The notes under the pieces: model-generated
What the model was told of the DNA's origin: nothing
What the model saw: only the letters and a program-made list of their open reading frames with translations
Databases searched by the model: none
Program-made: the position numbers and the translations under genes
Shown: positions 5,641 to 18,782 of the stretch, piece by piece
Layout: each line of letters opens with the position of its first letter
Numbering within the stretch: the first letter of the stretch is position 1
From: Bacillota bacterium
Lineage (GTDB): Bacteria; Bacillota; SHA-98; Ch115
Direction: 5' to 3'
Length of the DNA stretch: 64,000 nt
NCBI GenBank assembly: GCA_013178415.1
Contig: JABLXA010000013.1
Span: forward strand, 1 to 64,000

Positions 5641-5830
5641 TATACTGATCCCTCCCGACCAAGTTTATTTTTTGAAACACGTTCCCCCCGACATAGATAG
5701 CAAATGCCGCTATCCACCACTCAGGGTCGAATTTCCCGGCGAATAATGCCACCGTCGCTATCATAAATCCCAGGAATTTACGGCTGCCGATCTTGCTCAA
5801 CCATGGCTGAGGCTTATATTCCTTCCCCAT
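5612..5830 (-). CDS. Small membrane protein, putative holin
   Basis: A small protein with one or two hydrophobic segments (FLGFMIATVALFAG and WWIAAFAIYVGG) between charged ends, directly downstream of the lysin gene, the position and topology expected for a holin. The frame can be opened at 5848, but GAAGGGG lies eight bases before the second methionine at 5830, making 72 residues the better call. It overlaps the next gene by 29 bases, suggesting translational coupling. Homology to a named holin family is not evident. Confidence 0.65.
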   Translation of the reverse strand: MGKEYKPQPWLSKIGSRKFLGFMIATVALFAGKFDPEWWIAAFAIYVGGNVFQKINLVGRDQYNVGEDTERG

Positions 5831-5931
5831 TTTCTTAACCCCTTCCATTAATAAAAAATGGCCTTCTAGTTTCGCTTAGAAAGGACCTTTACGACGTTAT
5901 AGGTATAATATAGACCTGCGCGGGATTAAAA

Positions 5932-5964
5932 CGCGCCAGAATCGATCCTGACAACGCAGGCGCG
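5932..5964 (-). terminator. Possible terminator after the lysin gene
   Basis: On the minus strand CGCGCC and GGCGCG form a 6-bp stem with a 21-base loop followed by TTTTAAT, 4 bases after the lysin stop. The loop is long, so this is weak. The rest of the 5831-5967 gap contains a TATTAT-like -10 on the minus strand but no convincing -35. Confidence 0.3.
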
Positions 5965-5967
5965 ATT

Positions 5968-6453
5968 CTATGAGCTTGCCCGATTCATCCATCCTCTCTC
6001 GAAGACCGCTAGTTTCGGATTCCGGTCGATCAGCCGCCTGTAATGGGTCTTTTGCTCGACTCTCATTGCTTCCAGGAGCAACCCTGAGTCAGCCTCATTC
6101 ACCGCCTTAATCGTCTGCGGTCCCAATATCCCATCGACAGCCACCGGTTTCCCGATCGTAGCCAGAGCGCGCTGCAATAGCTTGATGCCCGTCCGCGCCC
6201 CGACGTTTACACAGGTGTCCAGCGCCTTGGTAGCCACGGCATCATCCTGAATCTCGTCCAAGCGGAGCCTCTCCCACCAGTCACGCCGGTAGATCTCAAT
6301 GGCCTCTTCTTGCGTAAGATTCCCGATATCCAGGTTAGGATAGCTCCGCTTGGAAATCCCATATTTCGTCTCGCCTCCCGGGTCTTTAGGATCGTTCACG
6401 TACCCACCTTCATGCCGTAACACTGTTTTGATTATCCGGGCGAACCTGTCCAT
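5968..6453 (-). CDS. Endolysin, glycoside hydrolase family 108 N-acetylmuramidase
   Basis: A 161-residue phage lysin that cleaves peptidoglycan. The N-terminal GH108 domain shows the family signature HEGGYVNDPKDPGGETKYGI with the catalytic glutamate at residue 15. The C-terminal half (LLQRALATIGKPVAVDGILG onwards, then RRLIDRNPKLAVFERGWMNR) matches the PG_binding_3 domain that usually accompanies it. There is no signal peptide, so release depends on the neighbouring holin-like membrane proteins. AGGGG spaced eight bases precedes the ATG. Length and domain order are standard for the family. Confidence 0.92.
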   Translation of the reverse strand: MDRFARIIKTVLRHEGGYVNDPKDPGGETKYGISKRSYPNLDIGNLTQEEAIEIYRRDWWERLRLDEIQDDAVATKALDTCVNVGARTGIKLLQRALATIGKPVAVDGILGPQTIKAVNEADSGLLLEAMRVEQKTHYRRLIDRNPKLAVFERGWMNRASS

Positions 6454-6722: not shown

Positions 6723-9700
6723 CTAACGCAGCGCCTCCTTCCCCATCGCCTCCCGTGCCATATTTGTCATACGCACCTGAATTTCATAGAGTAGCTTCTT
6801 CTTTTCCGCTGCTGGAATGCTCTTGTCTGCCAGGACACGGTTTCGCTCATCTCGATACATCTTGAGCAGATCGTTATACACCTTGAAGACTTCATGCCGT
6901 GCAATATTCTTTGGTATAGTCGCATCCTGTCCGCGTTCTAACCGCCGGTTGAATGTGTTCCACTCGCGGTCAAGCCTGGAAAGCTCCTCGTAAAACTGAT
7001 CCAGACTGCGGGGGCTGGATAGGGGCCTCCCCACAAATGCCCTTGCTCCCGGTATAAGCTCCGCAGCCGTCTTTTTCTGGGTAGCTTCGCCCGCGAGCAG
7101 GTCGAGAGTCTCCAGCCCCATCATGCCCAGGCCACCGCTATACGCCCTCACCGCCGCCTCAATGCGTCGAGGCGAGATATTGAAGGCCCTCCCCAGGGCC
7201 TTTGCTGGCGCCGTCGTGTACGGGCCGTACTGCTCGGCAGACTCCAGCAGCTTCTCGCTCTCAGGGACAATCGGTGCGCCGGTCAGCAGGCTCTTGTTGG
7301 CATACTGCTCCACAATCCCGATGAACGCTGTGGGCAGTATCGACGGAGTCACCATATCCCACGCTGACTTGGCGAGATCTTTCATCGCCTCGGGGTCATG
7401 CTCGTCGAGCCATTCCAGGAACCTCTCGGTCAGGCTCCCGAACAATAACCCGGCCTCGTGCGGCTTCGGGATATATATGGCTGTGCCTTCCTCGGGATAG
7501 AAACACCAGTATTGATCCTTGCGCCATCTGGCCTCCTCCTTGTATTCCCGCTTGTCACGGTTGATGAGATATACCAGGAGGCTGATCATCATGAGGAAGG
7601 AACCGCGCGCCAAGACCTTGACCGGAGCGCGCCTGAATTCCCGCCCGAGTCTGTCAATGCCTTGTATCTGCGGGTTCAGGAACCGCCAGGCCATGTTTAA
7701 TTGCCGACCTACCGTGCCCGCCCGCTGGAAGTCGAGAGAAACCTCTCTCGACGCATACGCGGCTTTGAGCTTCGCTTCCCGGCCCGTTTTACCTTCGGTA
7801 TCACGCAGGTACTCAGCCATCCTGGAGACTTCATCTGATATTTCCAGGATCGTTTCGAGGAATGTCAGCGGCAACCGGACGGTCCCTACTACTTTTTCGG
7901 CGAATGTAGTTTTACCTGTCATGCGCATGGCCCGCCGCTCTAGTTCCGGCCTGGACAGGCTGACCATGGCGGCTTGCGCGCCGCCGGCAGCTTCCCATTC
8001 GACGTATTTGTCACTCTTGCCCAGGATGTTCGCCAGCGCCCTAACCGTGTCTACGGGGATTAACCACGGCTTTTGGGCATACAATACCCGAGAGCCTGTA
8101 TCACGAGCTATATTCCGGGCCGCAAACTCAGGCGTGCTGAGAGCGCCTATATGGAGCAGTCTACTCGTAACGGCAAGCAGCCGCGTCACGAAGTCTGCGG
8201 CTTGCACGTCCAGACCCTGGAGTGCCTTATATAGCTCCGGATGGACCTGGTAGAAAACTGCTTCTTTCCCGCGCCGGATCACCAGGATGTTTTCTTTCTG
8301 CTCTTTGAAGCGCGCAAACCTGACCGGCTCAAATACCGTTGCTATCTTCTCCAGATCAGCCAGGTCAAGCTCGGACTCGGGCACACCCGCGTCAATGAGA
8401 TCCTTCTTTAACCGCTCTAGCTCAATCCTGTTTGCTTCGATCGGAGCGGGGATTTTCTCGATGAGCCATCCTGCACCCTTGGCCTCATCCGCAATCTCTG
8501 CGAGAGCCTTGCCGACATACGCGCGTTTGGCTATGTCCATGAAGTAGAAGGTATCCCGGATGTCAGACTGTATCGGATCCCAAATCGGACGTTCGGAACC
8601 TTTATACCGCTTGATGGCCTGTGGCAAGTCCGCAAGGCGTTTCCCGCGTCCTGGCCCACCCTTGTCTCCTGCTAACACCCGGTAGAAGGGGACGTGATGC
8701 TCATTTAATTCGCGCATCTTATCTGCCATGTCGGATGATAACGCCCCGGAATCTACTAGCCAGCCGATGAGGTTGTCCTTGAACTTTTCCCGTTCCTCTG
8801 CGGCCTTGCGGAATTCTAGGCTATCCAGCTCCCTGACGATAGCCTCGGCTTCGTCCTTTGTAATGCCCAGCCCGGAAGGTTTTCCTTGCTCCTCTAGTTC
8901 GACGACACGCCGCGCCACGATGTATTCAACGAATTCATCTATTCTATCTTTGACCGGCTCCAGTATCTTCTTATAGGAGGGGCCTGCTACTTTGAGATCC
9001 GGCGTAACCATGCCATGTTCAAGCATGGCAGATGCCGCTCTCGATGAGGACCTGGCGAGCCTGGCAAGGATATACGGGTTCTTCCGTATCTCCGCGTCGA
9101 ATTCGCTATGCAGTTCCTGCGGCAGCAACACCTGCATGGCTTTATACACAACATGGAGATCGTCGAAGGCCGCCTTATAGAACATCTCTTTTCGGTTAAG
9201 GAAGGTTTCTTCCTCTGGCGCCTTCTTCACGATGTGAGCGCGCATGGTTTCCCTTGCACTTTGGGACGCATATCTGCGATAGAGGGATTGGGCCTCCTTC
9301 AGCTTGCCCAGCATCTCATCGCCAACCCTGTGTTCGAATTCATCCATGAACAAGGGAGCTGCCGTCTTAGCTGCCCTGGGATCTGACAGATACAACCGGA
9401 CGAAATCGGCTGCACCTTCTGTTAGCTGCACCCCTAGGCCAGCCTTTGGATACAGCTTCTCACCTAGCGGTTTCAACTCTGATTTGAATTGCTTCAGATC
9501 ACTCGGTTTGATCCCCAGGATTCCCTGTATATGGTGCCCCAGTTCATGGAATGTCGCCTGGAGATCTCCTGGGGATTTGGTGCGCGCTACCTGCTCACGG
9601 CCCTTGTATTCGCCCCTCGCTTTTTTCTTGATCATGTGCCCGGTCCGCATCGGCACCAGGAATTTCCTCTCGATATAACTGATAATGCTCTGTCTGCCTA

Positions 9701-12700
9701 CAGGGGTCCCCGCTCCTTTACCGGTAGCGGGGCGTGAAGGGGCTGAAGGAGCCGTAGGTTGGGCAGGCATCCCGTGGATTTCCTCCTCGCCCATATCCTC
9801 ACCTGCAGTCTCGCCACCGCCCGTGATCTCCTCCTTTTGCCCTAATCCGAGTTCATCCGCAATGGCGGCGCTGCGCCTCTCCAGATCGGCCAGCTCTTCC
9901 TTGTGTTCAAAGCCCTTGGCAAGTTCCTTTTGCAGCTCTGACAGATTGTGTTTGGCTTTTTCCATCGCTGCGTTGAGGTCAGCAAGGTCTTTTTCCATGT
10001 TCCTGATTACATATTCGACACCTGCCAGGGTTCCTGTGGCCTGATATTCACCTTTCCCGACGATATATAGCTCATTGCCGCGCGCAGATTCGCTCCATCG
10101 GGTTACCAGATCAAACCCGGCTATCCGGCCTATTTTGCCAGGTTTCCCGTTGACAGCCTTCTGTAACGCCTCATCTGCATCTTTCCGGCTGGTATAAGTC
10201 TTGCCTTTGACCTCCATTTTGAATTTGTCCTTGGAGATATCCTCGCGGGTAGCGATGTCCGCCTCTAACGCGGAGATTTCTGTTTCCAGGGATTTGATAT
10301 ATGTCGGCAATCTCCGGGTTACCTGGTCCTCAGCATCGCGTCGATTCTCATAATAGTGGGATTCAAGCATCTTCAGACGGCGTATCTCAGATTGCAGCTC
10401 CATGTATTCTTTGATCTTGGGGTTGCCGGATGCAATCGCCGCCATCTGAGCGTAGCTTAGGGCTTCATCACTGATGTCTTCCATCTCACGAATGCTCGTG
10501 TCACCGCTCATAATCCGGCTGAATGATTGAGCCTTCGTCGCTATTAAATCCCACATGAATGAGTCAAATGATCCCTCTGTGGCGTAGGCGTATACCTGTA
10601 CTTCTTCATTCTCATTGCCCTGGCGCAGGATGCGGCCCTCGCGCTGCTCTATGTCGCACGGCCGCCACGGAGCATCCAGATGGTGTAATGCGACTAGCCT
10701 CTTTTGGACATTTGTCCCCATGCCCATCTTTTGAGTGCTACCAATGAGTATCCTTATGGTGCCAGCATTCACGTCGTTAAATAGCTCTTGTTTGGCTGCG
10801 TCATTCTTCGCTTCCTGTATGAAGGCTATCTCCTCTTTGGGCACGCCTCTAGCGATGAGTTTATTCCGGATATCTTCATAAACATTGAGGAAGCGCGCAT
10901 CGTCATCATCCGCTTGAGATTCCGCTTGAGTTTCTTGCGCCTCGGTATCTGCGGCCCCTCTGGGGGTTGACAGGTCGAGGAAGACTATTTGCGTCAATCG
11001 CTTGTCGGCAGTTTCCCGCCATATTTGCGCTATTCTATCGGCGGCTACAGCGATTTTGCTATGGGGTTCTTCCGGTAAAGATGGATCCACCAGACGCATG
11101 TCAAGAGCAGCCTTGCGACCATCACCGGTTACCTTTAGCGCATTATCTTCATCCGGTTTAACTTCCCCGCGTCGTATGGCTTCCATGCGTTCTACAAGCT
11201 TCTGAATATATGCTTTCAACCGCTCTGAAGCTGGCGCGGACAACATTTTGCGCCCCCCGCCAGCAATCTTGGGTACAGGTAGCTTCAACATTTCCTGCGT
11301 CTGGACATCCGCGAACGAGCGGAACATCATTAGTAATTCGCCTAGATTGTTAAACTTGGCGAACCTATCTGTTTGGCGGTAACCGCTTCCTGTCGGAGAC
11401 ATTTCCCATACAGAGATGACCTCTCCAAACGCTTTTGCCCACGCATCGAAATTGTGTATGCCCTTGGCCTTTAGCTCATCGGGTTGCAAATACCGTTGCA
11501 GGGTATACATTCCAGCCATTGAATTGGCAATTGGCGTGCCGGTCGCGAAAACTACCCCGCGTCCTCCGTTCAGTTTTTGTAGGTAGCGGACCTTCATATA
11601 AAGGTCGAAGGCTTTAGCTGACCCTTCTTTCGACCCTACTCCCTTTACCCGGTTCATGCGAGTGGTAAAGAAGAGATTCTTGAACTCATGGGCTTCATCG
11701 ACAAACAGCGCATCAACTCCGAGATCCTCAAATGGCAATGCGTCTTTGTCACGTTTGATTTTGCTGAGTTTCTTTTCCATCTCTGTCTCAAGCCGCTTTT
11801 TCGCCTTCTCCAGGTTCTTCACATACCCTTTGGAGGACCGTGTTCCAGATTGGACCTCTAGTTCTATTGCCGTTTCTAACTCTCTAATCTGCTCGTTGTA
11901 AAAATCCTCAATTGCCTGGGAGGACATCGGGATCATCCCGAAACTGGAATGGGAGATGATGATCGCATCATAGTCTCCCGTCGCGATCTTACTGAGGAAC
12001 TCTTTGCGATGCGCGGCATCCATATGTTTCGCGTCTGCCACGAGAATGTTCGCGGCGGGGTAAAGCTGCAAGAATTCCTCAGCCGTGCCCTGCACCCTGT
12101 TGTTTGGCACCACCATCATCGACTTCTTGCATATTCCCAGACGCCGCAACTCCATTGCACCTGCGACCATCTCAAAGGTCTTGCCAGCTCCCACTACATG
12201 CGCCAGCAGGCAGTTCCCACCCTGCAGGATACGCCATATGGCATTCTTTTGGTGAGGGCGCAGGGTAATGGCCGGATTCTGACCCGGGAGAGTCAGGTGA
12301 CTGCCATCATACGTTCTCAGGCGTAGATTATTATATTGATCGTTGTATAGTTTCATAAGTCTATTGCGACGGTTTTCATCAGACCAAAGCCATCGCTCGA
12401 ATTCTTCCTCGATGGCGCGCATCTTTTCACGCGCTGCTTCAGTCTCCTTGGGGTTAAAGATCCTATCGCCATCAGAGGTAGTATCGTATATCTCTGGTTT
12501 CTTGTTTTGCAGGATGCACTTTTTGATAATATCGAGACCATCCATCCGGTACGTGCCCCATTTTTGAGTAGCTTCCACCGACCGGTGAGCCCATCTCGAC
12601 GTCTCTTCAACGATCCAATCGCCGGTATTCTGCATGTATCGCACTTTGAAGTTGCTATATGATGTATCGAACAGATATGCCAGGAAATCTTGCATCACAT

Positions 12701-15700
12701 CTTCCGGTATCCAAGGCGCCCCCAGTCTCGCCTTGATTTCCGTGTGTTTTAGGTCAACAGGCTGCACCGCCTTGAGAGCCTCGACATTCTCCTTGAATGA
12801 CGGGTCATTCTGCGCGGCGGCTTCTGCTGCACGCAGCTTCGCCCGAACATCGCCAGAAAGATAATCGTCCGCTGTACGCCAACCATCCTGTGGATCATGG
12901 TATATAACGCCTTTTAGCTCGCGGATCATGTCGGCTACAGTCTTTCCGGAGAGTTTTGACATACGGTCAAGGTCCACGGTGCCAGTTTCATTCAGTGATA
13001 CGACGAGGGCCTCCTGCGCGGTGTCAACATGTTCAACCGGCTTATATCTCTGCAGGGTCCGTACATGAAAGACGTCCGCTTTCTCAGCGGACGCCTGCCG
13101 ACCCTTGGCTTTGTTCGGCGGCCTGTAGTTCTTTTCTAGGGACATTACCAGATGGTAGTCCGGATCGTTGGCGAAGATGCTATTGTTGGCTTTATCATGG
13201 AGATAACCATATTTCTTGACGAAGTTATCGTAAAGCGTATTGAGCGCCTTCATAGATGCTTTGATCGCATTGGGTGAAGCATCTTCCGAGAGTTGGAGGC
13301 GCAAGTGGGTCCTTAGCGCGTCGCGCAATGCCATCATCCCACGCACACGTTTCTCTGCCGTATCAGATAGACCCGCTGGGACTAGCACGTTCCCTTTCTT
13401 TACATGGAGCTTGCCGCCTACGTCCACAAATGCGTCTTCCTTGACATCCCCTGGAGCCGGTATCAGTTCGCGTGGTTCCACTGCTTCCGTGGCCTTGTGG
13501 ACTGGTTTTGTAATGATATTTTCCGGCAACCTGCCAAAAGCCTCGGATAATGCTGCCCCTAGATCGCGCCCATCAGATTCAAGGGCGGCCCGGCCAGGAT
13601 GTAGCTTATCATCCACGATTTTCCCCAGCATCATCTCCGGATGACGCACGAAGTATTCGTTGATACGGAGAGGATCCCCATATTTGCCGCGTACACCCGA
13701 ATCTACAGTTCCTTGCCATGCCTCGCCAGCAGGCGGTGTTCCCGGTTCCCTCTTTTTGAGGATCAGGATATCTGTCGTGACTTCAGTGCCAGCATTTTCT
13801 TTGAAGGCGTTGCCAGGTAATCTGATAGCACCGATAAGGTCTGCCTTCTGCGCGATCAGCTTGCGGGCAAGCCCACTCCGCCCGCTATTCATAGTTCCAG
13901 CGGTGGTGATGGTCATGACTACCCCACCAGGACGCACCTTATCGAGCGATTTGAGGATGAAGTAATCATGAATGTATAGTTTGTATTTGTTGTATTCTGG
14001 GTCATTGACAGAATAGTCGCCAAAGGGAACATTGGAGATCATTACGTCGTAATAGTCGTTCGCTAGGTTCGCTTCCTCAAACCCTTGGACGCGCACGTCG
14101 GATTGAGGGTATAGCTGTTTGGCAATACGCCCTGTGATGGAATCGAGTTCGACCGCTGTAAATCTAGACCTTGATGCCACATCTTCCGGCGCCAGCCCGA
14201 TAAAATGCCCGATGCCTGCTGCGGGTTCCAGAACGCGCCCGCCCTTAAATCCCAAACGCCGTAATCCGCTCCACATGGCTTTTACGACGGTAGGCGAAGT
14301 GTAATGCGCGTTAAGAGTTGAACCTCTTGCGGCTTCATACTCCTCATTACTTAGTAGCTCGCGCAATTCCTTGTATTCATTTGCCCATTCTTCGTTGCGA
14401 TCCCAACTTGTTGGTGGTTGGAATGCCCTTGATAGACCACCCCACCCAACATACTTCACCAGGACCTTCTGTTCCTCTGGCGTAGCTTGTCTGCCTTCGG
14501 ATTCAAGCTGTTTGAGCAAACGAATAGCTTCTACATTGGCACGGTACTTTGTCTTGGCCCCGCCTTCACCGATACGATCCTCATTAGAGATACGATAGTT
14601 TACTCCTCGTTCTCCTCGTCTCTCAGCGGCGGTTCTAATGTCGCTGGGTTTCTGTGGCCCAGGTCCTTCTGTTCCTTCTCCTCCGGCAGGTCGATGTACT
14701 CCTGTATCGCTAGGCTCCGTGCTAGATACGGTTCCACGCCCTGCTGCGTCAGAAGGCTGCACATTTCCGCTGCGTTCTCCTGCGCCGCGTATGCCGCCTT
14801 GTAGAGTCTCCCCGCCTTCTTGAGGTCGCGGTACATTTTCGGCCTGAATTCCTTCCAATGGTCCAGCGCCCTCAGTCCTAACCCGAGGAGCTTCCGCCTG
14901 TACTCCTCCTCGGTCATCTCCTGTGGCATGCTCCTTCACCTCCGATTTGATTATAGCACTAGACGGCTCTGTGGCGGGAGATAGCTCCCTTGGTGGCACC
15001 TGTAGAGTTGGAACAGACCCCTCAGCCTGCGGCACTGGCGCTTGTTGACCTGCCAGGCTATTTGCGAATTCTATACGTTCCGGTGTACGCTTGCCATACC
15101 ACATCTTCTGTTTCGGACTCCACCGGAATCCCAGATGATGGAGCTGACTAATGACGGATGCGTCCGGCTTACTCTGGAAGCGTATCTCGACCCCGTCCTT
15201 TTCCTCATTCTGAGTGACCTGAACGCCCGTTGTTCCATGAGTTGGAGCGACCGAAGCAGGTGCAACTGGGGCCTCATGCGCAGCCGGAGCGGGCGCAGGT
15301 GATGTTTCAGAAATCTCTAGTTCCCTAATCTTCCCAGACGCTTTGAGATCCTTGACATAGCTGTTCCATTCATCGGCGGAGATCGCGCCATCTACTAGTT
15401 TAAGGCGCATACGTCCGGTTTCCTCCGCATCCTGAAGCCTTACGCCTGGGACAGCCGCATTCCCAAGCAGTTGATATAGCTTTGTTTTGACTGGTGAATA
15501 GTCACCACCCTTATACGCCCTCAATTGGTCGATAAACATCTTCTCTTTCGCCGTATATGTCTCTGGTTTCACGGAAGCCTCTGTTTTGATCTCTGGAGCC
15601 TTTGCAATCTGTACCGAAGGTGATTCTGCCTCGGGTATTCTCTCAGGGGTTTGGACGGCCTCCCGGTGCATTACAGAGGCAGACGTAAAGACTGCTGGAG

Positions 15701-18700
15701 GCGTTTCTGCCACCGGAGCTGTAGGTGCTGCATCGCCCTTCTTGGGTTCAATGTTGGTGCCATCGAGCAGATGAATCGTGTGCGGACGGTTCTCCAGACC
15801 GGCGTAGCGTGGCGATATCGTCCCTTTGTCGAGCAGCCGCTCAATCCCTTTGTTAAGGCCATCTATGCCATTCTTATTAAGTGCCTTTTCCGCTTCTCGA
15901 ATAGCCTCTTCTCGAGAAAAAGCGCCTGGTATGATGCGATATCCGGTTATCCCTTCCGAAACGAGCCATTCATCTGGACGTGTCGGATCGTGATGCACAA
16001 AAAATTCATAGCCCTCAAATCCGGGGAAATTGACTTTTTCACCCCTGACTTCGCTATATCTGCGAGTTCTCCCATCGTTATCAATCACCGCAGAGAACAT
16101 CCTATCCGGGAGAACAGGTTCTTTGGGCGCTAAGGTTTTCGGCTCCGGGGCGGCAGTGGCCTCTTGAGTAGGCTCCGGAGAGACAGCAGTTACCTTAGTG
16201 GTTACGGCTGTTTCTGGGGCGTTGATTTCTCCTGCTGTTTCTTGTGGGCGACTCGCTCTTTCGACCTGCGGCACCTCTACCTTGCCCTCTGAAGCTTCCG
16301 GAACTTGCACCGAAGGTGTTTCTACCTTGGGGACTTTTACAGGGGCTTGTTCGGGTACTTTGGCCTTTTCCACCAGCTCAGGATAATCCTTCAGCACCTC
16401 GCGGGAGACGGGCTTGCCTGCGGCAAGGGCCTCCTCGACCGCACGGCGATGCGCTTTTTCCATCAAAGGCCGGAACGTTGCCGTATCAACCATGTAGCGC
16501 AAATCCGGCTCTGTATTCTCACGGGCCTGTTCAATCCACTCCTCCTGCGTCATCTGCCAGGGTTCCTTCTGACCCTCTATTTTGACCTCTGGAGTCTCCG
16601 GAATCTGTACTGAAGGTGTTTCTATCTTCGGCACTTCTACCGGGGCCTGTGTGGCCTCCTGGCGCGTTGGTAGAACCTCTGTCTTAATGGATTCTTCAGC
16701 GCCCGTTTTTACAGGAACCTCTGGGGTTTCTTGCGTTTGGGCCTCATGTGCCACTTGCGGCACTTGAGTTATCTGGGTCTCTTGCGCTCCCGGTTTTGCC
16801 GCTTCCTCTACCCGTGCCTGATGGACTTTAGGAGTGGGAATAGGGGTCTTCGAGACTAATAGACGCCCAATCTGAAATTCATTCCCGGTTACGGGATCTG
16901 CCCCTCTGATTAAACTGGGATCATTGGCGCCCGTGACCTTAAACTGCCTGCCGTCGATGTCGTAGACTATATCTCCTGGCTTGATTGATCTATCAATCTG
17001 CCGCTTCAAGACAGAACCGCGATCAAGGGTAACCTTCTTATGATCCTTGTCCTCAGCAATTAACACATTCGGATCTCTGGCATCAACGACATGATATATG
17101 TTCCGATTCGAATCTATTACAGCGTCACCCGCATTGATCCGGTCAGAGGGGGGATTAACTATTTGTGGCGCTGATAATGCCATTTCATCGGGTGTTCCAG
17201 CCTTGATTACCTCTTTGACCCTTGCTGTCCTGGGCCGTGGCACAGATTCAGGTTGCGCTGTGGGGGCCACGGGTGTTACAGGCTTAGCCGGTTCAATCTC
17301 TATCTTTGTCAGATCCTTGGTCGGGACAAGCCAGGTTTTTCTCTTGCCATCCAATGGCTTATCACTTTTCACTTTGGCGGCAGGAGCCTTATCTCCGCTG
17401 AGAGCCTCTATTGTCCCAGTCACGGTATTGCCTTTATGCTGCCAACTCACTCTATCTCCAGGCTTTAAGCCAATCGCCTGTATTGTCTGCGCGGTCTCGG
17501 CTGTCGAACTGGGAACTGTCTGCGTGCCTTTAGCCGGAACCGTTACAACGGGGGCAACCTGGACAGGGGCAACCTGAGCTGGAGCGGCCTTCTGTTTCTT
17601 GGATGGCTGGACCTGTGGAGCCTGTTGTGTTCCCTGTTGTAGCTGCTTTACGACATTGTTGGCTATTCTACGTGCCTGGAGTTCTTCAGCCACTTCGTTA
17701 GCAACGCCTGTCGCGCCCATACCCATGCCCATCAAAGCGCCGATAACCCCCGCCTCTTTCATGGCTGGATCCCACGCAACCTTCTGGCCTTGCGCCTTGC
17801 GTTGGAATACCTCTTGCGCGACTTCCTCCGCGCCCTCCTGAATGCCGGTGGTCGCGAGACGGCCTGCTCCGCGCATGATGGGATTGAGCTTGCTCAACCC
17901 AGGCACCTTTGCGAACGAAGTTAACAACTCACCTGCGTCGAGAGCGATAAGGCTCAGGTTGTATTTGAATGTCTTATCAGCGGCTTTGTCTGCTTCTTGA
18001 GGCGACATTCCGCGCTGGATCATATCATTATAGGTCCCGCCGGCCTCCATAGCGCTTTCAATCGCCCTGGACATGGCGCCACCAGCGACAGAACCTATAA
18101 TCTCTGATGTAACTGCGCCAGCTCCAGCGGCTGCCGCCGCTTTTGTGCCTAGTTTCATGCCTCCGATACCAACCGGCAGGAGAGCAAGCATAAAGGGTAT
18201 TGACCTTGCGACTGGGCCGGTATAGAAACTGGGATCGAGGAGATCTCGCCAAGTGAAGTCCTTTATCTGCGGCTTGCCGACCTTCTGAATCTCTGCTCCA
18301 ACAGAGATAAGCGTATCACCTAACTGCTTAGCGCCGAGCCACTTGGCTGCACCACCAGCAGATGCGGCAACATCGCCTACGCCTGCTGTGATACTCCGTA
18401 ATATTTCAGTGAGTGGTGGTTCAGCCGGCGCGTTTGCCACCTGGGGCATTCCCTGGTAAAAACTCGGTGAACGTGGGGCTGAACTTTGCACGGAGAATGA
18501 CATTGGCGTAGGTTGCGGTATCGTGGAGGCGGCATATGGAGTGGCATTCACCCTTGGGACCGATGGGGCTGGCGAAGCCGCCTGCATACGATTGATGCCG
18601 CCCATAATTGCGGCTAGATACGGATGATGCGCAGCAAAGCCAGGGTCTATACCCTGGCCCTGCCATTGTTGTTCATATTGGGCCTGTAGAAGGTCCAGCA

Positions 18701-18782
18701 ATTCATCTACAGAGTCCTTCTTCTTTTTGTCTTTGTCCTTCTTTTGGTTCTGCTGAAATAGCAGATCTATAGAAGAGGGCAT
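6723..18782 (-). CDS. Giant polyvalent virion-type protein: methyltransferase, SF2 helicase, metallopeptidase, LPD38-like
   Basis: A single frame of 4019 codons with a strong AGGAGGTG site five bases before its ATG. Residues 1-400 hold charged low-complexity sequence and Ala/Gly-rich hydrophobic stretches (about 190-235) that could contact membranes. Residues 400-1190 are Pro/Val/Glu-rich linkers with small folded islands. Near 1190-1235 is a short domain containing [19 protein letters not shown], seen in other phage antirestriction proteins. A methyltransferase follows (SAM motif [10 protein letters not shown] at 1518, catalytic NVPF at 1584-1587), then an SF2 helicase (GAGKT lysine about 2200, DEAH 2362-2365, [20 protein letters not shown] about 2712) with coiled coils. 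A HELGHH zinc-peptidase motif is at 3079-3084, and an LPD38-like region lies around 3700-3830. The helicase-methyltransferase pair recalls P1 DarB, and giant proteins of this kind occur in Bcep22-like podophages. Inferred role: packaged, injected and protective of phage DNA, possibly self-processed. Confidence 0.88.
14600..14929 (-). CDS. Overprinted small gene embedded in the giant gene
   Basis: A 109-codon frame, same strand as the giant gene but shifted by one base, covering codons 1285-1395 of the latter. The protein is acidic and helical ([60 protein letters not shown]) and has normal protein-like composition. The giant frame over the same bases reads Gly/Arg/Glu/Pro-rich low-complexity sequence. 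GGAGGTG lies seven bases before the ATG (14937-14943), and an extended -10 TGCTATAAT lies at 14950-14958. Its TAA abuts the point where the recognisable methyltransferase-helicase sequence begins. I recall similar short proteins in other mobile elements but cannot name a function. Confidence 0.6.

Follow-up and report, generated by a model that had tools for sequence, protein, structure and literature searches.

Does a small open reading frame (ORF) lying wholly inside a giant phage-type gene encode a protein of its own and, if so, what might that protein do? The question is raised by a 64,000-nucleotide stretch of a Bacillota contig (hereafter the window), in which terminase, portal, capsid and tail-type genes lie upstream of a giant gene and on the same strand. 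Within this gene, an ORF of 109 codons runs on the minus strand from an ATG at 14929 to a stop codon at 14600-14602. The features concerned are the following:

6723..18782, minus strand: giant polyvalent (DarB-like) gene, 4,019 aa, containing the nested ORF (Pfam LPD38, SNF2-related and Helicase_C matches)
14600..14929, minus strand: nested gene for a 109-aa TnpV-like helical protein, in the +1 frame of the giant gene (homologues, family dN/dS, AlphaFold core)
14937..14943, minus strand: Shine-Dalgarno (SD) sequence GGAGGTG, 7 nt 5' of the nested ATG (sequence; SD enrichment in relatives)
14950..14958, minus strand: TGCTATAAT, proposed extended -10, not significant
13704..14600, minus strand: start of the methyltransferase block of the giant protein (45-53% identity to DarB-like phage proteins)
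10616..12392, minus strand: SF2/SNF2 helicase part of the giant protein, residues 2131-2722 (Pfam matches)
7065..7547, minus strand: LPD38 polyvalent-protein domain of the giant protein, residues 3746-3906 (Pfam, E=1.7e-37)

The first-pass annotation of this DNA had described the ATG, the GGAGGTG seven bases upstream of it, a -10-like sequence and the 109 codons, and all of them are present in the sequence. It had also remarked that the giant frame is rich in Gly, Arg, Glu and Pro over the same bases, which it is, and that the nested ORF ends where the methyltransferase begins. Alignment with DarB-like proteins agrees, placing the nested stop directly against the conserved N-terminal part of the giant's methyltransferase block. 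The adenine methyltransferase block is followed by a SNF2-type helicase (alignment and Pfam), the arrangement that makes the giant gene DarB-like.

Two of these cues carry little weight on their own. The length of the ORF is not significant: the +1 frame remains open across the 109 codons in 44% of synonymous resamplings, because the amino-acid composition of the giant protein suits an open +1 frame. The ORF might hence be a chance frame kept open by that composition. A second long +1 open stretch (113 codons; 12353-12695, minus strand) is found inside the giant gene near the helicase part. The -10 box that had been claimed is not supported either, the -10-type sequence TGNTATAAT being at chance level (three copies in the window versus 1.9 expected). 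The case for a gene thus rests on conservation (same-frame homologues, a reversal of codon-position variability, dN/dS and SD enrichment) and not on ORF length or the -10. From these lines of evidence we conclude, with high confidence, that the gene is real, nested, related to TnpV and independently initiated.

Homologues of the nested protein (about 25-46% identity) were found in the same +1 frame, just 5' of the methyltransferase-helicase part, in phages of Ochrobactrum, Agrobacterium, Sinorhizobium, Vibrio, Erwinia, Klebsiella, Pseudomonas and Microcystis. As an example, tblastn searches with the small protein hit viral contigs and, at about 40% identity, phages of Ochrobactrum, Agrobacterium and Microcystis, where the annotated CDS is named DarB-like or methylase. 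A profile and further queries extended the set to 11 distinct phages in the annotated collection, in which all good matches fall inside giant genes, and to 26-39 viral loci. In every phage or viral locus examined except one (Sinorhizobium phage PBC5, see below), a giant open frame contains the ORF in its +1 frame, immediately ahead of the methyltransferase block, and in most of them the start codon is found about 12 codons before an HWKEF motif. The nested ORF is also present in Burkholderia phages JC1 and BcepIL02 and in Pseudomonas phage USP_25. Relatives that keep the giant frame therefore keep the small one too, rather than interrupting it with stops. Nowhere in the annotated records inspected does the nested gene have a CDS of its own. 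In the record of Pseudomonas phage Itty13 (L044 1899-12219), the methylase block falls in a giant open frame exceeding 3,700 codons that is itself unannotated, and antisense hypothetical CDSs are annotated opposite to this frame.

An independent set of 80 viral loci was gathered with the methyltransferase piece alone (about nine contigs are shared with the training set; 62 sequences are new relative to the first set after deduplication). The small-ORF profile recovered a homologue in 57 of these loci in the first pass and in 72 after iteration. All 72 nested homologues are in the +1 frame and none in another, typically 250-430 nt before the methyltransferase match. In six of the eight profile-negative loci (L163, L167, L185, L189, L190 and L194), a +1 ORF spanning 80-117 codons occurs at about this position together with an SD-like sequence, and several of these ORFs look family-like by eye. 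At the equivalent place, +1 ORFs of 87-98 codons are also seen in Bacteroides phage BKO1-TP3 (L233), Pseudoalteromonas phage Y7 (L227) and Pseudomonas phage 8P (L226); they give no significant profile match and are possibly divergent members. No nested homologue was found in P1 darB or in the first 20 kb of P1. Other searches gave little: in the genome contig collection a single-sequence scan with the small protein had no match and an alignment scan retrieved one locus, the plasmid collection had no match, and NCBIfam offered no consistent match for the family.

In PBC5 (L037, about 5727-6300) an indel joins the upstream part of the giant to the small frame. As a result, the small domain forms the end of the annotated gp22, and the methylase-helicase is listed apart as gp21. 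This could be either a sequencing error or a real frameshift. The nested protein also matches the C-terminus of the phrog_938 'endolysin' profile. We rejected an endolysin identity, as that profile probably includes a PBC5-like joined protein that accounts for the match.

We sought to establish which of the two frames is constrained across the overlap. Outside the nested ORF, the giant gene varies most at its third codon position; within the ORF, this variability collapses and the third position of the small frame becomes the most variable one. The reversal is seen in three phage clades, one gut clade and two clades of integrative conjugative elements (ICEs), and is weaker in the window's own clade, because that clade is divergent. 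An overlap-aware dN/dS estimate of our own, applied to five clades other than the window's, gave 0.14, 0.46, 0.48, 0.32 and 0.44 for the small frame (all confidence intervals below 1) and 0.88, 1.42, 1.30, 0.84 and 1.15 for the giant frame in the overlap in the same five clades (none significantly below 1). Purifying selection on the small frame thus coincides with near-neutral evolution of the giant frame. These values refute a chance open frame, which we consider practically excluded given also the conserved frame-specific protein, the SD enrichment and the standalone homologues described below.

Structure prediction points in the same direction. AlphaFold yields a confident helical core for the small protein (pLDDT above 90 at about residues 20-79), while the giant frame over the overlap scores 37-48, climbing to about 90 where the methyltransferase block begins, and is predicted to be disordered there. 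Taken together, dN/dS, codon positions and AlphaFold identify the small gene as the constrained sequence and the giant frame as a passenger linker. The first-pass annotation had proposed that the embedded gene is the older sequence; the small frame is indeed the conserved one, and probably the older, with the giant frame under low constraint. A PDB sequence search with the nested protein returned designed helical proteins and a weak chance match only, and Foldseek found no match in the PDB. In the Foldseek viral set the best match was Q8W6J4_2, which we take to be the frame-joined PBC5 protein.

If the small protein is made independently, its start should carry translation signals. We scored the nearest upstream in-frame ATG for an SD match of at least 4 nt. 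Such a match precedes the nested ATG in 91% and 77% of two phage sets and in 47% of the ICE set, compared to 13.8% of 5,352 control +1-frame ATGs, bearing out the claim of a ribosome-binding site (RBS) of its own. We infer that the small protein is translated by internal initiation on the mRNA of the giant gene. Alternatively, programmed +1 frameshifting during synthesis of the giant protein could lead ribosomes into the small frame, as the constant relative frame and the joined frames of PBC5 might suggest. Yet in the window and in several phages, including those of Erwinia and Klebsiella, a stop closes the small frame two or a few codons upstream of the ATG, which argues against frameshifting, as do the conservation of SD and start codon and a cassette copy that would work outside the giant context (see below). 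We regard frameshifting as very improbable. We rejected the idea that the giant frame restarts where the small one stops: a giant-frame ATG lies within -20 to +25 nt of this stop in 1/72 loci, versus 169/720 random positions.

What family does the small protein belong to? The window protein matches the TnpV family (PF14198) with 21.9 bits (E=1.8e-4), below the gathering cut-off of 27 bits, hence our label TnpV-like rather than TnpV. Among its relatives, 18/37 match PF14198 at E≤0.1 (best E=1.8e-4). Aligning the enlarged phage family, which includes members with a TnpV-like C-terminus, to the TnpV alignment with hhalign gave a probability of 98.1 (P=7e-14), against 82.9 for the narrow family. 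By these profile comparisons, the nested protein is a remote homologue of TnpV.

TnpV is carried by 14/249 genomes of the window's phylum. When loci were oriented and classified, 17 distinct TnpV ORFs proved to be nested in the +1 frame of giant ORFs; others are standalone, with no giant gene nearby within the short loci seen. Three TnpV-containing giants that we checked encode an Eco57I-type methylase and a SNF2 helicase (about 2,450-2,990 aa). A search with the N-terminal piece of one ICE giant found 19 unbroken examples, and 19/19 have a nested TnpV in +1 (we call these elements ICEs on the basis of the genes they carry and of published work on genes of this kind, PMC5512222). In ICE giants the nested TnpV follows the N-terminal domain and precedes the methylase by several hundred codons, so the site differs from that in phages. 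In a Streptococcus element (L232, phi-SsuZKB4_rum; 8600-8833) a truncated TnpV ORF lies directly after a SNF2-family methylase-helicase gene, outside that gene. As ICEs of this kind acquire TnpV-carrying insertions in snf2 (PMC9815147), this fragment, probably the end of such an insertion, was not counted as linkage between TnpV and a giant.

In the open-access papers searched, TnpV figures only as a postulated excision factor or a 'transposase' (PMC3158075, PMC9815147), the excision role of the Tn4451 protein being postulated from its likeness to lambda Xis (PMC3158075). Homology to TnpV therefore raises the option that the nested product is an excisionase-like DNA-binding regulator. We find this unlikely, as structure comparison finds no DNA-binding fold and the window copy sits in a late structural region.

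The first-pass annotation had supposed that the small gene could once have been separate, and independent copies of its product do exist, namely the standalone TnpV genes and one copy outside a giant gene. In genome G260 (L122 8223-8575) the RBS and the small gene lie outside any giant gene, showing that the small gene can stand alone. This block, which runs from near the SD to the end of the gene, is 95% identical in DNA to the nested copy in viral contig L143; beyond it the two loci show no similarity, the flanks being unrelated. The block overlaps the start of a 479-aa ORF by 8 nt, and the frame corresponding to the giant frame of L143 is still mostly open, likely a trace of nesting. In a 71-column tree the nested and standalone copies are interspersed, favouring neither direction of change. 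The nesting could have originated either when an upstream frame read through an older pair of tnpV-like and darB-like genes, or when a tnpV-like cassette landed in the linker.

How, then, might the nested gene work? We propose that ribosomes start at a separate SD and ATG in the +1 frame of the linker preceding the methyltransferase-helicase dyad, and there make a TnpV-like helical protein of about 109 aa. With internal initiation on the giant mRNA, the small protein would be made whenever the methylase-helicase is made, and late co-expression is plausible because the giant gene lies downstream of the structural genes on the same strand. The overlap would also keep both genes linked. Since the small gene and the giant co-occur in nearly all phage and ICE giants tested, the small protein may be a co-expressed partner of the methylase-helicase: a chaperone for its assembly, packaging or ejection, or a modulator of its activity. 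We put this forward tentatively, at somewhat less than even odds; standalone TnpV genes without a giant nearby in the short loci seen, and a P1 darB without such an ORF, speak against it. Alternatively, the nested gene could have an independent role (e.g. in anti-defence or host interaction), the giant linker being only a conserved and well-expressed site. Standalone TnpV genes and the G260 copy with its own RBS favour such a role, but all good matches in the phage collection lie inside giants and nearly all giants tested carry the nested gene. We regard an independent role as the main rival, somewhat less likely than the partner role.

To a broader picture we give about an even chance. Methylase-helicase conflict proteins of phages and conjugative elements would have an almost obligatory small partner, drawn from a single family and read from the +1 frame of the very gene that encodes them. 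The two genes would then be among the most widespread and oldest nested same-strand pairs in mobile DNA, so far unreported, and the nesting would either predate the split between phages and ICEs or have been repeatedly re-established by a mobile cassette of RBS and ORF. We found no report of this nesting in the open-access literature, an absence that is not proof; the polyvalent-protein paper mentions neither TnpV nor an overlap (PMC5512222). The nested gene is missed by routine gene calling because the giant gene occupies the same DNA, yet the small protein is the conserved one there. It is a possible missing component of DarB-like antirestriction proteins, and the little-understood TnpV family gains a shared genomic context. 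More generally, an annotated polyvalent protein can in places consist of passenger sequence that is read across a gene older than itself, and this frame-fixed overlap, spread over phages and conjugative elements, offers a clean test case.

Comparison with known systems places the pair as follows. DarB of P1, the archetype of DarB-like polyvalent proteins, is incorporated into virions and has antirestriction activity (PMC5512222). The window giant resembles DarB-like proteins in its methyltransferase and SNF2-type helicase parts and in LPD38, and differs from P1 darB in having a nested gene. With TnpV, the window family shares a homologous helical domain, and ICE TnpV is likewise nested in +1 in a giant methylase-helicase gene. 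In contrast to TnpV, the window protein falls below the Pfam cut-off and has an HWKEF-type motif and a different C-terminus; the phage copies directly precede the methyltransferase block, whereas ICE TnpV lies several hundred codons earlier. A formal parallel is offered by nested pairs such as Rz/Rz1 of phages, where a small gene is likewise wholly enclosed by a larger one of the same strand and read in another frame. Unlike in Rz/Rz1, the outer gene here encodes a 4,000-aa polyvalent protein and its frame evolves almost neutrally where the two overlap, and the pair occurs both in conjugative elements and in phages whose hosts belong to several phyla.
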